From Bacteroidota bacterium (GTDB lineage Bacteria > Bacteroidota > Bacteroidia > UKL13-3), in assembly GCA_027482225.1 (NCBI GenBank), contig JAIXWD010000016.1:330050-394049 (forward strand): DNA of 64,000 bases, written 5' to 3'. Of this stretch, positions 39,286 to 45,886 are shown piece after piece. The notes under the pieces are model-generated. The model had not been told where the DNA came from. It made no database searches and saw only the letters and a list, made by a program, of their open reading frames with translations. Position 1 is the first letter of the stretch. The number at the start of each line of letters is the position of its first letter. The translations under genes were made by a program, and so were the position numbers.

Positions 39286-40914
39286 ATGAACGGTTTTTTT
39301 AAAGTTCCTGTTCCAGTAAACGAACCTATTTTAAATTATGCACCTGGTAGTGCTGAGCGCATTGATTTAAAAGCGGCATTAGCCTCTGCTCGAGGCAAAC
39401 AAATTGATATACCCATGTACATTGGTGGCGAAGAAGTGAGGACTGGTAAAACCAGGCGATTAGCTCCTCCACACGATCACCAACACACGTTAGGTCATTT
39501 TCATTTAGGCGATGCTTCACATGTAAAAGTTGCTATTGATGCAGCTTTGGCTGCTAAAACCAATTGGGAAAATTTGCCTTGGGAACAACGTGCTGCTATA
39601 TTTTTAAAAGCTGCTGATCTAATTGCTGGTCCTTATCGCGCTAAATTAAATGCGGCAACCATGCTTGGTCAAAGCAAAAATGCATTTCAGGCTGAAATTG
39701 ATAGCGCTTGCGAGATTATTGACTTTTTACGTTTTAATGTGGCCTTTATGAGCCAAATTTATAACGATCAACCACAATCGGGTAAAGGCATGTGGAATCG
39801 CATTGAATACCGTCCACTTGAAGGATTTGTATTTGCTTTAACACCATTTAATTTTACAGCTATTGCAGGTAATTTGCCTACTAGTGCTGCTATGATGGGT
39901 AATGTGGTTGTATGGAAGCCTGCTAATACTCAAATATACTCAGCCAATGTATTGATGGAAATTTTTAAAGAAGCTGGGGTTCCTGATGGGGTAATTAATT
40001 TGGTTTATGTTGATGGACCAACAGCTGGTGAAGTAATATTTAACCATCCTGATTTTGCAGGAATTCACTTCACGGGTTCTACTGGAGTATTTCAAAATGT
40101 TTGGAAAACCATAGGTGGTAATATCCATAAATATAAAACCTATCCTCGTATTGTAGGAGAAACAGGTGGGAAAGATTTTATTGTGATGCACAAAACGGCT
40201 AAGGTAGACGAAAGTGTAACCGCGATTGTTCGAGGTGCATTTGAGTTTCAAGGCCAAAAATGTTCAGCAGCCTCGCGTGCTTATGTGCCATCAAACTTAT
40301 GGCCTGCAGTTAAAATGAAATTGATAGAAACCGTTAGGTCTTTAAAAATGGGCCCAACCGAAGATTTTAACAACTTTGTAAATGCAGTTATTGATGAGCG
40401 TTCATTTGATAAAATTGCTAATTATATTGAAGGGGTAAAACAAGATGCAGATACTGAAATTATAGTTGGTGGCGGTTACGATAAATCAAAAGGATATTTT
40501 ATAGAGCCTACTATTGTGGTTACTCAAAATCCAAAATCAATTACCATGTGTGAGGAAATTTTTGGACCAGTATTAACTTTGTTTGTTTACGATGAAAATA
40601 AGTACGAAGAAACGTTGGACTTGGTAAACACCACATCTGAATATGCGTTAACAGGTGCTATTATTTCTCAAGACAGATATGCAATTGAATTAGCCACAAA
40701 TAAATTACGAAATGCAGCAGGTAACTTTTATATAAATGATAAACCAACAGGTGCTGTAGTTGGGCAACAACCATTTGGGGGTGCCCGTGGTAGTGGTACA
40801 AATGATAAAGCAGGTGCCATGGTTAACTTACTCCGTTGGGTAAGCATGCGAACCATTAAAGAAACATTTGTATCTCCAACCAGTTATGAGTATCCTTTTT
40901 TATCAGCAGAATAA
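39286..40914 (+). CDS. pruA: L-glutamate gamma-semialdehyde (P5C) dehydrogenase
   Basis: The 542-residue aldehyde dehydrogenase completes proline breakdown by oxidising glutamate semialdehyde to glutamate with NAD. The catalytic Glu is in GETGGKDF and the catalytic Cys in FEFQGQKCSAASR. ALTPFNFTAIAGNLP and the NDKPTGAVVGQQPFGGARGSGTNDK ending are specific for P5C dehydrogenases. The size matches the single-function form (about 540), not PutA, so proline dehydrogenase must be encoded elsewhere. It has its own terminator. Confidence 0.96.
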   Translation: MNGFFKVPVPVNEPILNYAPGSAERIDLKAALASARGKQIDIPMYIGGEEVRTGKTRRLAPPHDHQHTLGHFHLGDASHVKVAIDAALAAKTNWENLPWEQRAAIFLKAADLIAGPYRAKLNAATMLGQSKNAFQAEIDSACEIIDFLRFNVAFMSQIYNDQPQSGKGMWNRIEYRPLEGFVFALTPFNFTAIAGNLPTSAAMMGNVVVWKPANTQIYSANVLMEIFKEAGVPDGVINLVYVDGPTAGEVIFNHPDFAGIHFTGSTGVFQNVWKTIGGNIHKYKTYPRIVGETGGKDFIVMHKTAKVDESVTAIVRGAFEFQGQKCSAASRAYVPSNLWPAVKMKLIETVRSLKMGPTEDFNNFVNAVIDERSFDKIANYIEGVKQDADTEIIVGGGYDKSKGYFIEPTIVVTQNPKSITMCEEIFGPVLTLFVYDENKYEETLDLVNTTSEYALTGAIISQDRYAIELATNKLRNAAGNFYINDKPTGAVVGQQPFGGARGSGTNDKAGAMVNLLRWVSMRTIKETFVSPTSYEYPFLSAE

Positions 40915-40933
40915 AAACCGCTTATATCTTAAA

Positions 40934-40970
40934 ATAGCCCTTCTAAATAGTATTTGGAAGGGCTATGTTA
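40934..40970 (+). terminator. terminator after pruA
   Basis: ATAGCCCTTC and GAAGGGCTAT pair, with AAATA/TATTT extending the stem. The downstream T content is modest. Confidence 0.65.
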
Positions 40971-41038
40971 TTAAATGCCGTGTTACGGTTTTATTTTGTA
41001 TAATGCAAACTCAAATGTAAAGTATAGTATTTTTTATC

Positions 41039-42907
41039 ATGATACAAATCAAATTTATAACAACAAGTTTAGTGCTTTCGCTAATTTTATTTAGTGCGCA
41101 AGCACAAACCACAAAACAGATTAAACCATTTAAGCTTCCTGCAGCTCGCACCCAAGATGAAATTAAGTTGGGGCGTATTTTAGCTGAAAATAAATTGCTA
41201 GAAAAAAAAGCAGAATCTTTTCCTTTAAATATCCGTTATCCAGGCGAGTTTGAAGAATCACAATCTGTTTTTGTTTCTTGGTCGTATGATTATGATTTAA
41301 ACGGAAATGTAACGGGTGCTGACGTAACAAGCGAATATGCTTTGATTTCTGCAAGATTAACGGATGCTATACAAAAAGTAGTTCCCGTTATTATCAGAGT
41401 TGAAAAGGCAAGTGATACCTCTGCCATTAAAACTTATATGAACAACCGTAATACCCCTCTGATAAATTATAGCTTCATTATTTTTCCGGGTGATGACTGG
41501 TGGACTCGCGACTTTGGCCCTAATGGTGTTTATGTTGGCAACCAAGACAGCTTAGCTTTTATCGATTTAAAATATTATCCCGGCCGCGATAAAGATGATG
41601 TTGCTCCCATTGCTTTGGGTAATAGATTAAACATACCCAATTACATTACACGTTTAAATGCAGAGGGCGGAAACCTGATGGCTGATGGTTTTGGAAGAAC
41701 TTTTTACAGTGATGTTGTAACTTCTGTAAATACCGATCCTGAAATGGTTAGTCCTGTTTTTACCAAACAAGAAATCAATGATAAAATGAATGTAATGTTT
41801 GGCTCGAAACAAAATATTGATTTACCAACTTTAAATTGTGATGGCGGAACAGGGCATATTGATTTGTACTTAAAAATGATTGATGAACAAACGCTCATGA
41901 TTGCAAAATACCCAAATGAAATTACGGCTATCGACAAACAAATAATTGAGAACAATACACAATTATTGGCATCAATAAACAGTACTTATAATCGCCCTTT
42001 CAGGGTTTACCGCATACCACATCCAACCGATGATAATGGCAACCACTCTCGTAGAACATGTTCGCAACTAAATGCAGATGCACGAACTTTTGTTAATGGT
42101 TTAACCGTTAACAATACTTACATCATGCCATCATACTCTGATGAGTTTAATGGAAATAAAGCACAAACAGCACAAGTGGTTAACTTATTTAAACGTATTA
42201 TGCCGGGATATAAAGTAATAGACATCGACTCGCGTTTGTTGAGTGAATTGGGTGGTGAATTACATTGTATTACAATGCAAATTCCTGCCGAAAATCCTGT
42301 TCTATTTTGGCATCCAAGTGTTGATGGTTTTTATTCAAGTATTCAAAACAGTTTTCATATTGTTGCTAAAATCACTAATAAAAGTGGTGTTACTTCTGCT
42401 GTTTGTAAATGGCGTTTAAAAGGTGCATCAACATTTAATACCATTAATTTAACAGATAGCTCGGGATATTTTATTGGTGATATTGTGGCAAACGGATTAA
42501 CAGCCGCAGATGAGATTGAATATTACCTAAGTGCTACTACCAACAATGGTAAAACAGCTGTAAAACCTATCACTGCGCCTGATGGATTTTATAGTATTTT
42601 CTTTACTGAAAGAACATCATTATCAGAGTTTGAAGTAAAACCTAAAAACTATTTGTTTAATGCTTATCCAAATCCTGCATCAAGCCAAATAAAAATACCT
42701 TTTTATGCCATGCAGGCAAAAATAGCAACCATAAATGTTACCGATATTAGCGGGAAAACCATCAAACAATATACGCCATCAAACCTACAAAACGGACTAA
42801 ATGAGGCAATTATTGATTTGCATGATTTTAATAACGGAATTTATTTTTATACTTACACTTTAGATGGCAATATTATTGCAACACGTAAGTTTATTGTAAG
42901 TAAATAA
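41039..42907 (+). CDS. T9SS-exported peptidylarginine deiminase/agmatine deiminase homologue
   Basis: The 622-residue protein has a signal peptide (about 1-22), a guanidino-group-modifying (PAD_porph) domain at about 55-430 and a T9SS type A sorting domain (about 545-622, AYPNPASSQ). Active-site elements are Asp158 in TRDFGP, His273 and Asp275 in TGHIDLY, and Cys410 in GGELHCITMQ, the same order as in the Porphyromonas gingivalis enzyme PPAD. An Ig-like beta domain sits between catalytic and sorting parts. It may convert arginine residues or agmatine-like compounds outside the cell. Substrate class cannot be told from sequence. The ctp-type protease gene follows after 15 bases. Confidence 0.88.
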   Translation: MIQIKFITTSLVLSLILFSAQAQTTKQIKPFKLPAARTQDEIKLGRILAENKLLEKKAESFPLNIRYPGEFEESQSVFVSWSYDYDLNGNVTGADVTSEYALISARLTDAIQKVVPVIIRVEKASDTSAIKTYMNNRNTPLINYSFIIFPGDDWWTRDFGPNGVYVGNQDSLAFIDLKYYPGRDKDDVAPIALGNRLNIPNYITRLNAEGGNLMADGFGRTFYSDVVTSVNTDPEMVSPVFTKQEINDKMNVMFGSKQNIDLPTLNCDGGTGHIDLYLKMIDEQTLMIAKYPNEITAIDKQIIENNTQLLASINSTYNRPFRVYRIPHPTDDNGNHSRRTCSQLNADARTFVNGLTVNNTYIMPSYSDEFNGNKAQTAQVVNLFKRIMPGYKVIDIDSRLLSELGGELHCITMQIPAENPVLFWHPSVDGFYSSIQNSFHIVAKITNKSGVTSAVCKWRLKGASTFNTINLTDSSGYFIGDIVANGLTAADEIEYYLSATTNNGKTAVKPITAPDGFYSIFFTERTSLSEFEVKPKNYLFNAYPNPASSQIKIPFYAMQAKIATINVTDISGKTIKQYTPSNLQNGLNEAIIDLHDFNNGIYFYTYTLDGNIIATRKFIVSK

Positions 42908-42922
42908 TTCAATATATAACAA

Positions 42923-44917
42923 ATGATTGTTAAACATATTAGTGCAGTGTTATTTGGGGCTTTGTTTTTAAATACAGCATGCGCAACAGATACAACCAAA
43001 GTACATTTTAAAAATCTTGAACCAGAACCACAACACCCTATGGTGTTTTCTACAGCAATGCAACTGGTAGCATCATATCACTATCAAAAACCTGCGATAA
43101 ACGATCAGTTTTCTTCAAATGCTTTTGATAATTACATCAAAGATTTAGACCCATCAAAGGTTTATTTTTTGAAAAGTGATATTGCTGAGTTTGAAAAATA
43201 CCGTTACGCTATTGATGAAAGTATTTTTAGTGGGGATGTAAAACCGGGCTTCGAAATTTTTAACCGCTATCAAAAACGTTTACAAGAGCGTATTAATTAT
43301 GCGTTTTCGTTATTGAACGACTCAACACAGTTTGATTTCAGTAACAATGATTCGTTTATGACAAATAGAGAGAAGACATCTTTTGTATCAACTTCAGATG
43401 AATTGAATGCACTTTGGAAGCTTAAATTAAAATACGAGTGTTTAGCATCTAAAGTTCAAGGGAAAGACTTTAAAACATACAGCGAAACGATTCGTAAGCG
43501 ATATGATAATTTACTAAAATTATCGTCAAAAACTAAAAGTGAAGATGTTTTTCAGTTATATGTAAACTCATTAACCGAATTAGCTGATCCACACACGAGT
43601 TATTTCTCTCCTCGTGCAAGTGCTGATTTTAATACGCAAATGAGTTTATCATTAGAGGGTATTGGTGCTACTTTACAAACCGAAAACGAGTATACCAAAA
43701 TACGTGAAGTGGTAAAAGGTGGACCGGCTGATAAAAGCAAGAAAATATTTGCTGGAGACAGAATTATTGGTGTAGCACAAGGTGACAGTGATTTGGTGAA
43801 TGTAGTAGACTGGCGCTTGGATGATGTAGTAAGTTTAATAAGGGGTAAAAAAGGAACCACAGTTAGATTAGAGATAATTCCAGCATCTGAACATAATAAA
43901 ACCAAGGTTATTGAGATTAAGCGAGATAAAATTGTATTAGAAGACCAATCGGCTAAAAGTAGTATAAAAGAAGTTACGCGTAATGGTAAAAAATATAAAT
44001 ATGGTGTCATAAGTTTACCAACTTTTTATATTGATTTTGCTGCAGCACGTAAAGGAGATCATAATTATAAAAGTACCACTCGTGATGTAAAAAAACTGAT
44101 AGTTGAATTAAAAAAGCAAAAGGTTGATGGACTGGTTATTGATTTGAGAAACAATGGTGGTGGTTCATTACAAGAGGCCGTAGAATTAACAGGCTTGTTT
44201 ATTAAGGTTGGTCCTGTTGTGCAAGTTAAAGACGGATCCGGTGGGATTAAAGATGAAACAGATCGCAATCCTGAACTATTTTATGATGGACCAATAAGTG
44301 TTTTAGTAAACAGATTTAGTGCTTCTGCATCCGAAATTTTCGCTGCAGCTATTCAAGACTATGGCAGGGGAGTTGTTATTGGAGAAAAAACTTATGGAAA
44401 GGGCACCGTGCAAAATATGGTGGCTGTAAATGAATTTGTACAGTATGATGGTAAGCCATTAGGTGAAGTTAAATTAACCATTGCAAAGTTTTATCGTATA
44501 AATGGAAGTTCAACTCAACACCGTGGTGTAATTCCCGATATTGAATTGCCAAGTTTGTATTCTGATAAAGAATTTGGAGAGGAAGCCAGTAAGTATGCTC
44601 TGCCATGGGATCAAATTTCGCCAACACAGTTTGAGGCTGTTAATACTGTTACCTCAAAATTAGACTTAGTAAAGAAAAGTCATATCCAACGAATGAGCAA
44701 TAATAAAGAGTATGCTTATTTGCAACAAGATATTAATTTCTTTAAAGAACATAATGCTAAGCTTTACCAAACGCTAAATGATGTTTCGTACAAAATACAA
44801 AACGATAAAATAGATGCGGATAAAAAGGCGAGAGAGGATGAACGCAAAGCGCGTAAGGTTACCAATCCAGATTTAATGATGGATGAAGCCTTAGAAGTGA
44901 TGTGTGACTTGAAATAG
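42923..44917 (+). CDS. prc: tail-specific carboxy-terminal processing protease (S41)
   Basis: The 664-residue protease has a signal peptide, an N-terminal helical domain, a PDZ domain (about 225-315, LSLEGIGATLQ start) and the S41 catalytic domain with Ser in NRFSASASEIFAAA and Lys in IGEKTYGKGTVQ. A C-terminal DUF3340-type helical tail (about 545-664) marks the Prc/Tsp subfamily, which removes damaged or tagged envelope proteins. It lies 15 bases after the deiminase gene, possibly in one operon, and ends at a strong terminator. Confidence 0.94.
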   Translation: MIVKHISAVLFGALFLNTACATDTTKVHFKNLEPEPQHPMVFSTAMQLVASYHYQKPAINDQFSSNAFDNYIKDLDPSKVYFLKSDIAEFEKYRYAIDESIFSGDVKPGFEIFNRYQKRLQERINYAFSLLNDSTQFDFSNNDSFMTNREKTSFVSTSDELNALWKLKLKYECLASKVQGKDFKTYSETIRKRYDNLLKLSSKTKSEDVFQLYVNSLTELADPHTSYFSPRASADFNTQMSLSLEGIGATLQTENEYTKIREVVKGGPADKSKKIFAGDRIIGVAQGDSDLVNVVDWRLDDVVSLIRGKKGTTVRLEIIPASEHNKTKVIEIKRDKIVLEDQSAKSSIKEVTRNGKKYKYGVISLPTFYIDFAAARKGDHNYKSTTRDVKKLIVELKKQKVDGLVIDLRNNGGGSLQEAVELTGLFIKVGPVVQVKDGSGGIKDETDRNPELFYDGPISVLVNRFSASASEIFAAAIQDYGRGVVIGEKTYGKGTVQNMVAVNEFVQYDGKPLGEVKLTIAKFYRINGSSTQHRGVIPDIELPSLYSDKEFGEEASKYALPWDQISPTQFEAVNTVTSKLDLVKKSHIQRMSNNKEYAYLQQDINFFKEHNAKLYQTLNDVSYKIQNDKIDADKKAREDERKARKVTNPDLMMDEALEVMCDLK

Positions 44918-44935
44918 TAATGAACAAAAAAACAG

Positions 44936-44974
44936 AAACGGGTTGATGAAGATTATTCATTAACCCGTTTTTAT
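44936..44974 (+). terminator. terminator after prc
   Basis: AAACGGGTT and AACCCGTTT pair, extended by ATGAA/TTCAT inside, and are followed by T residues. Confidence 0.85.
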
Positions 44975-45038
44975 TAATCCATAATTTGATAACGACCTTC
45001 GACTTTCATTCGTTTTGAAATTCGTAAAAATATGATAG

Positions 45039-45078
45039 AAAAAATCCCGCTATACAATTGTATGGCGGGATTTTTTAA
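45039..45078 (-). terminator. terminator of the barrel protein gene
   Basis: AAAATCCCGC and GCGGGATTTT flank an inner TACAATTGTA palindrome. It lies just beyond the 3' end of the minus-strand gene that stops at 45089, with A/T runs on both sides, so it can act on both strands. Confidence 0.8.
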
Positions 45079-45088
45079 TGCAATGTTA

Positions 45089-45886
45089 TTAGAAGTATAT
45101 AGCGAACGTAATAGCACCAGATGCGTTGTCAACATCTATATTGAAATTAGAACCACCAGCAGTTTTATTTGTTGTTTTAACAACACTAGTTCCATTCCAA
45201 CTTTCACTTTCAGCTGTACCTTCTCCTGTCGTTGAGAAGCCTATTCCCCAACCAAATTCTGCTCCTACAGACATTTTTGGTGCAAAGAAGTATTCAGCAC
45301 CAACAAATCCTCTTGCTCCTATGCCAAAGGTTAAGCCTTTTGAATCTTCAAGTACACGAGGTGTTGTATTACCAAGACCTAGGCTATTACCATAAGTGAA
45401 TGATTTAGAAGGGTCTTTTGAAATATCAATTATACCTTCAGCACCATAAAATCCCCTTAATCTTCCTTTTCCCCTGTAGTATTGTAACCCTGCTCCTAAT
45501 GTTAAAGCGAAGTCAGATGTTGTTTCACTATTTTCTACAGTTTCACCAGTACTTGTCCCTGTTTTCGGAACATATGTTTTATCCGTAAAACTGTTGAATC
45601 CAACTCTTGCTTTCACACGATAAGCAGTATTCTCATCTTTCATGTATTTACCGACAATGGTAAATGGTGTTTGATAGTCTAGTGCACCTGCTGCAGAATT
45701 AGGTGCAGTATTACTGAATATACGTGTTTTGTCGAATGCGTAATCTAAGAATGGCACAGCATCAAAGCTAATTGACCAATCTTTAGCTTCTGGTAAAATT
45801 GGCGTACCTTTTTTACTGGTAAGACCTTGTGCAAATAAACCAGCTCCAGCTGATAAAAATGCTAACGATAAGAATAATTTTTTCAT
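45089..45886 (-). CDS. outer-membrane beta-barrel protein, function unknown
   Basis: The 265-residue protein has a signal peptide (about 1-19, ending LFAQ) and a series of amphipathic strands ending in ITFAIYF, with the terminal Phe favoured by the BAM machinery. Two loops rich in Ser, Thr, Gly and Glu (about 110-125 and 215-245) would face outward. It looks like the OmpW/OprF-sized barrels common in Bacteroidota, but I cannot name a family. It is a single gene with a -7 box and a terminator. Confidence 0.7.
   Translation of the reverse strand: MKKLFLSLAFLSAGAGLFAQGLTSKKGTPILPEAKDWSISFDAVPFLDYAFDKTRIFSNTAPNSAAGALDYQTPFTIVGKYMKDENTAYRVKARVGFNSFTDKTYVPKTGTSTGETVENSETTSDFALTLGAGLQYYRGKGRLRGFYGAEGIIDISKDPSKSFTYGNSLGLGNTTPRVLEDSKGLTFGIGARGFVGAEYFFAPKMSVGAEFGWGIGFSTTGEGTAESESWNGTSVVKTTNKTAGGSNFNIDVDNASGAITFAIYF

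Follow-up and report, generated by a model that had tools for sequence, protein, structure and literature searches.

The peptidylarginine deiminase of Porphyromonas gingivalis (PPAD; PDB 5ak7, 4yt9, 6i0x), an enzyme associated with gum disease, consists of a pentein catalytic domain, an immunoglobulin-like (Ig-like) domain and a type IX sorting domain of its own, the last of which is described in sections of PMC4487231. According to the same sections, R152 holds the C-terminal carboxylate of the substrate by a double salt bridge and is called indispensable, R154 assists and holds the preceding carbonyl, Y233 also binds the carboxylate, and the variant R152A is inactive; passages of PMC4893104 report that the activity of R152A was lowered and was kept on Gly-Arg, and on that peptide alone. 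The lineage was extended to two further Porphyromonas species, as stated in excerpts of PMC10394638. Agmatine deiminases (TIGR03380; PDB 1xkn, 2jer, 6nib) have the same pentein fold and carry no extra domains, again according to sections of PMC4487231, and in the plant enzyme AIH the amine-binding Asp is D220, located four residues before the catalytic His (passages of PMC6447857). Here, we describe a gene of this superfamily in a stretch of 64,000 nucleotides (the window) from a Bacteroidota bacterium of the lineage UKL13-3 (assembly GCA_027482225.1, contig JAIXWD010000016.1, positions 330,050 to 394,049). Its product, referred to as PAD, is probably a conserved, exported deiminase of a clade adjoining PPAD with an altered recognition site, as judged from sequence, and we consider it reasonably likely that it is a type IX-exported arginine-type deiminase serving nitrogen and carbon scavenging. 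A literature search turned up no description of this clade, whose members are called window-type in the following.

A probable exported deiminase and its place beside PPAD

The open reading frame (ORF) 41039-42907 on the plus strand encodes a protein of 622 residues with, in this order, a signal peptide, a PAD_porph catalytic domain, an Ig-like domain and a type A sorting domain of the type IX system. The features are:

41039..42907, plus strand: predicted exported PAD_porph-family deiminase, 622 residues (domain scans, PDB match, tree, Foldseek)
41039..41107, plus strand: N-terminal signal peptide, residues about 1-23 (inspection of the sequence; helix 4-22 in the model)
41234..42286, plus strand: pentein catalytic domain, residues 66-416 (PF04371; PPAD and agmatine deiminases matched in fold comparisons)
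41510..41512, plus strand: D158, equivalent to the guanidinium-binding D130 of PPAD (alignment)
41579..41581, plus strand: P181, in the position of PPAD R152, which leaves the carboxylate clamp missing (alignment)
41585..41587, plus strand: R183, equivalent to PPAD R154 (alignment)
41855..41863, plus strand: H273 and D275, equivalent to PPAD H236 and D238 (alignment)
42095..42097, plus strand: N353, equivalent to PPAD N297 (alignment)
42266..42268, plus strand: C410, the nucleophile, equivalent to PPAD C351 (alignment)
42326..42604, plus strand: Ig-like domain, residues about 430-522 (PPAD alignment to residue 522; beta strands in the model; fold alignment 57-523)
42665..42898, plus strand: type IX sorting domain, type A, residues 543-620 (PF18962; TIGR04183)

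The Pfam scan placed PAD_porph (PF04371) at residues 66-416 (E 9.5e-39, 133.9 bits, cut-off 25) and Por_Secre_tail (PF18962) at residues 543-620 (E 5.5e-12), and TIGR04183 matched as well. The sorting domain is thus intact, as a first-pass annotation made from the letters alone had claimed, and D158, H273, D275 and C410, which it had named as PPAD-type catalytic residues, indeed align with their PPAD counterparts. SprA is encoded in the genome, and a search at E 1e-3 gave 88 matches to the sorting domain, of which three are flagged as below cut-off; the bacterium therefore probably has a type IX system. PAD combines the signal peptide, seen by inspection, with a type A sorting domain in such a genome, as expected of type IX cargo. 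A genome search revealed this single PAD_porph gene. The ratio of nonsynonymous to synonymous substitution rates (dN/dS) was 0.11, 0.09 and 0.13 in comparisons with the relatives L124, L125 and L127, respectively, with synonymous sites near saturation in the last, and the gene is therefore under purifying selection.

The best PDB match in a sequence search was PPAD with 85 bits, Ig-like domain included, compared to 39 bits for the top agmatine-deiminase-like chain, and a 49-row profile gave 172.7 versus 89.1 bits, a margin that comes partly from the Ig-like domain. The agmatine deiminase family TIGR03380 scored 75.7 bits and did not reach its cut-off of 381.8 bits. An AlphaFold2 model of the protein had a mean pLDDT (predicted local distance difference test) of 87.9, and Foldseek found PPAD first with this model (E 7e-36), followed by the next family at E 6e-24. 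In a tree of catalytic domains, calculated from 87 of 112 gathered rows (L213, L230 and 23 near-duplicates were left out; two row pairs are identical), the window-type group (43 rows, support 100/99), the agmatine deiminases (15 rows, 100/100) and PPAD with 28 relatives (99/89) were recovered. Within the PPAD group, PPAD clusters with three proteins of one family (L240, L241 and L242; open frames of 886-1064 residues) at 100/100, which are its nearest relatives in the set. Judged from these comparisons, PAD is placed in a clade of predicted exported deiminases next to PPAD and apart from agmatine deiminases. The phylogeny proposed with the first-pass annotation hence does not group the protein with agmatine deiminases (100/100 split), a placement that the annotation itself had named as a refutation; from its suggestion of a secreted citrullinating or agmatine-degrading enzyme, an exported pentein with a complete deiminase catalytic set is supported. 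Among the matches listed in a search with PF04371 over the phylum, most resemble cytosolic agmatine deiminases.

The catalytic D, H, D, N and C are present in all 61 window-type rows, from which L213 and five named rows of less than 500 residues were left out. R154 of PPAD, too, corresponds to Arg in 61/61 rows. The position of R152, in contrast, was occupied by P (25), D (23), S (3), T (3), E (2), A (2), N, Q and G (1 each) and never by Arg; MAFFT and HMMER alignments concur in the register of the two positions. The relatives grouped with PPAD retain both arginines in 30/30 and 3/3 rows. Y233 of PPAD, located in the Michaelis loop, is replaced by Gly in 61/61 window-type rows, but this position is weak as a PPAD criterion because it is non-Tyr in 33/33 R152-bearing relatives as well. 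At the amine-binding position four residues before the catalytic His, Gly was found in 61/61 window-type rows and Asp in 13/16 agmatine-deiminase rows; since Asp is also present in 30/30 R152-bearing PPAD relatives, it is no clean agmatine marker. An invariant Asp of the window-type proteins (D268) is located one place further from the catalytic His. PAD differs from PPAD also by a Glu (E209) in place of T180 and shares about 21-24% identity with it in structure alignments. With R152 absent and Gly in place of both Y233 and the amine-binding Asp, the window-type proteins therefore have neither the full PPAD set nor the agmatine-binding Asp. An arginine-type substrate would be held by R183, with its C-terminal side open. 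The specificity for C-terminal Arg known from PPAD, to which the first-pass annotation had alluded, is unsupported because R152 is missing in every row, a conclusion tempered by the Gly-Arg activity that passages of PMC4893104 report for R152A.

Genes next to PAD in the window and in relatives

PAD is flanked in the window by the following features:

42923..44917, plus strand: Prc/Tsp carboxy-terminal processing protease, 664 residues; a neighbour, probably not a functional partner (Pfam, NCBIfam, PDB match, family survey)
39286..40914, plus strand: L-glutamate gamma-semialdehyde (P5C) dehydrogenase, upstream of PAD (TIGR01236, 790 bits, cut-off 613.6)
40936..40964, plus strand: 8-bp perfect inverted repeat AGCCCTTC/GAAGGGCT, located between PAD and the dehydrogenase gene (resembles a terminator on inspection)

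The protease gene begins 15 bp downstream of PAD and encodes TSP_NTD, PDZ, Peptidase_S41 and DUF3340 domains. The protein matches Prc/Tsp (PDB 5wql) over residues 20-651 (E 6e-145) with every domain present and passes the cut-off of TIGR00225 (330 versus 218.6 bits); it misses the stricter one of NF008388 (699 versus 825 bits) and is otherwise ordinary. No sorting-domain match was found in the Pfam scan of the 664-residue ORF. A search at E 1e-60 found prc in 35/35 genomes of the window's family, several of which are incomplete, although the only copy in G021 and in G030 is more distant (36-37% identity); PAD was found in 21. In 12 of these 21, prc follows PAD (G000, which is the window genome, G001, G003, G004, G005, G006, G007, G015, G016, G018, G027 and G028), on split contigs in G005 and with a gap of 1.4 kb and another ORF inside in G015; in the remaining nine it is on another contig. 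Among 59 named window-type loci, some of them cut by contig ends, prc adjoins PAD in 10. A genome of the same genus (G002) has kept the dehydrogenase and an intact prc with a PAD remnant between them (L183:800-977), in which about 13 residues of the N-terminus and 35 of the C-terminus are left, and in G008 (81% complete) prc is present and PAD was not found. The order pad-prc is kept in four genera while the surrounding genes differ, which argues for some link between the two: five window flanking genes were searched for near the copies of genera g8, g9 and g11 and were not found there. The adjacency of Prc to PAD is probably incidental, and we take Prc to be a housekeeping protease that works independently in the periplasm; the two may be linked by regulation or by history, but a supply of C-terminal arginines by Prc is not indicated. 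The close spacing and the tail-specific protease of the first-pass annotation hold, whereas a working pair is not supported, given the presence of prc regardless of PAD, its retention beside a PAD remnant, the lack of a sorting-domain match and the separate contigs in 9/21 genomes.

The commonest neighbour of PAD in the named loci is not prc: an arginine-dihydrolase-like gene is located upstream and read divergently in 23/59 loci, or in 22 of the 52 that have at least 1.3 kb upstream of PAD. In 17 of these 23 loci, the distance from its start to PAD is no more than about 220 bp. Seven copies were scanned; the best families were arginine dihydrolase and dimethylargininase (best E 2e-44 to 8e-51), but all seven were below the curated NCBIfam cut-offs. 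A profile of the gene, searched against the PDB at E 1e-5, found no relatives other than the cyanobacterial Sll1336 (6juy) and Alr4995 (6lrf), which we take to be ArgZ and AgrE. No signal peptide was evident by eye in the copies printed. Of 64 genomes from the order, 16 have the dihydrolase-like gene, and 15 of these copies had PAD inside a 1.5 kb flank, the single one without it being L258 (G449). Among 58 relatives the gene was found in five, all within the 21 PAD-bearing family genomes, and it is present in the PAD-bearing but absent from the PAD-less members of g7 (G014 and G025 versus G034), g13 (G029 versus G020) and g14 (G021 versus G030). There was no overlap between Prc-linked and dihydrolase-linked loci among the named ones. 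P5C dehydrogenase completes the conversion of ornithine or proline to glutamate, and both neighbours point to arginine catabolism, for the window by analogy only.

A small intervening ORF of about 170-190 residues (open frame) is shared by the dihydrolase-linked loci L153, L154, L155, L174, L178 and L180; L178 belongs to Chitinophagaceae bacterium LGM1, which has a complete genome. A link of PAD to cyanophycin was considered and rejected: cyanophycinase is encoded in PAD-less genomes of the family, too, and had no match in the PAD-bearing G014, G016, G025 and G027, and therefore the two do not correlate. The window genome itself has a cyanophycinase gene (G000 contig C22:100040-100837).

The terminator scanner did not report the inverted repeat upstream of PAD; it reported instead a weak site at 40977-40989, its sole terminator-like site in 40800-45200 and located upstream of PAD (1 versus 2.6 expected by chance). 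A promoter scan gave 23 sites versus 19.4 expected, that is, no signal.

Proposed role and competing explanations

In the proposed role in scavenging, PAD would be exported from the cell through the type IX system and, outside the cell, the pentein would deiminate free or peptide-bound arginine at its guanidino group. Citrulline and ammonia would be the products, and the reaction would be a step in the nutritional scavenging of nitrogen and carbon, with the adjacent Prc taken as independent of it. Several observations weigh against this proposal. The dehydrogenase adjoins PAD in the window's genus only, among the loci examined, and a hairpin is located between the two genes. The dihydrolase-like gene is missing from 16 of the 21 PAD-bearing family genomes and was not found in any of nine genomes of the window's genus at E 1e-30; with 5/21 and 0/9, the link to a dihydrolase is therefore borrowed from relatives. 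Even there, 6/23 loci have a gap of about 450-640 bp with another ORF on the dihydrolase strand. The tree was rooted on agmatine deiminases by choice and includes only three groups, E209 is common to PAD and agmatine deiminases, and VIA-align gave a tie, with Z 39.3 for the agmatine-deiminase-like 1xkn (329 residues aligned) and 38.8 for PPAD (411 aligned); since Z does not separate the two families, VIA-align was dropped as a discriminator.

A PPAD-type exo-deiminase that acts on C-terminal arginines of peptides, the ends being supplied by the adjacent Prc, appears unlikely to us. It would be consistent with a domain order and catalytic residues equal to those of PPAD, with the second clamp arginine, R183, being retained, and with the codirectional genes 15 bp apart, an adjacency seen in 12/21 genomes from four genera with differing flanks. 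Passages of PMC4893104 report that R152A of PPAD retains activity on Gly-Arg, but the same variant is described as inactive (sections of PMC4487231) or reduced (PMC4893104), and Arg was found at this position in 0/61 rows. The genomes argue in the same direction, with prc in 35/35 and PAD in 21, and with prc beside a PAD remnant in the same genus. Prc-type proteases act in the periplasm and are not Arg-specific, whereas PAD bears export signals. There is also only a small chance that the window-type proteins are undescribed exported deiminases that act on arginines inside peptides, endo-acting like animal PADs, and feed a two-pentein arginine-scavenging pair with the divergent dihydrolase in many free-living relatives. 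This rests on the missing R152 clamp and bulky loop tyrosine with R154 kept; the Gly-Arg activity retained by R152A indicates that removing R152 is not by itself enough for the site to admit internal arginines.

For an exported agmatine deiminase, which we regard as quite improbable, speak the equally close catalytic fold by VIA-align, the agmatine-deiminase-like E209, the invariant D268, which could replace the amine-binding Asp, and the lack of another PAD_porph gene in the genome. Against it stand the TIGR03380 score far under the cut-off, the separate clade at 100/100 and the Gly in 61/61 rows, versus Asp in 13/16, at the position identified in plant AIH (passages of PMC6447857). Finally, specificity residues unlike those of both known groups would fit a catalytically silent pentein serving in binding, but with five catalytic residues invariant in 61 rows and a dN/dS of about 0.1 this is very unlikely. 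Scavenging by an exported arginine-type deiminase is the role that we prefer.

Two forms of PPAD relatives in Bacteroidota

The 59 window-type loci were obtained from a scan of named genomes and are mostly from uncultured Bacteroidota bins, but also from Chitinophagaceae, a Spirosoma-labelled bin, Cryomorphaceae, Kapaibacterium, Ignavibacteria and one Desulfobulbaceae-labelled bin. Some bins are titled as pond samples, for others the isolate codes can be read as a lake origin, and the window bacterium is probably from freshwater. At E 1e-40, 34 of 392 phylum-wide genomes match a profile of R152-bearing proteins; by score and residues, these comprise 7 window-type, 21 with both arginines, 4 nearest PPAD (3 of them residue-checked) and 2 unverified matches. 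Exported-type PPAD relatives with R152 and R154 (L214-L234, L080-L088) are spread across many Bacteroidota families, and therefore the trait of having both clamp arginines is not confined to Porphyromonas. As far as sequences tell, exported PPAD relatives across Bacteroidota come in two forms, one with both clamp arginines and the other, that of the window, without R152. The two natural forms are material to test which residues determine specificity, and whether environmental bacteria use citrullination in their nutrition or whether it is a peculiarity of one oral genus.

Window-type enzymes in the Desulfobulbaceae- and Ignavibacteria-labelled bins (L182, L168 and L173) would be due to transfer or misbinning, and in one bin a frame change, either a sequencing error or a pseudogene, breaks the PAD gene (L174:6010-7829). 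In addition, the window genome has two matches to C25 (gingipain-type) peptidases; one is in an open frame of 1305 residues that may be PorU, and the second copy of the domain (G000 C8:55998-57065, L245) is located within an open frame of 1672 residues.

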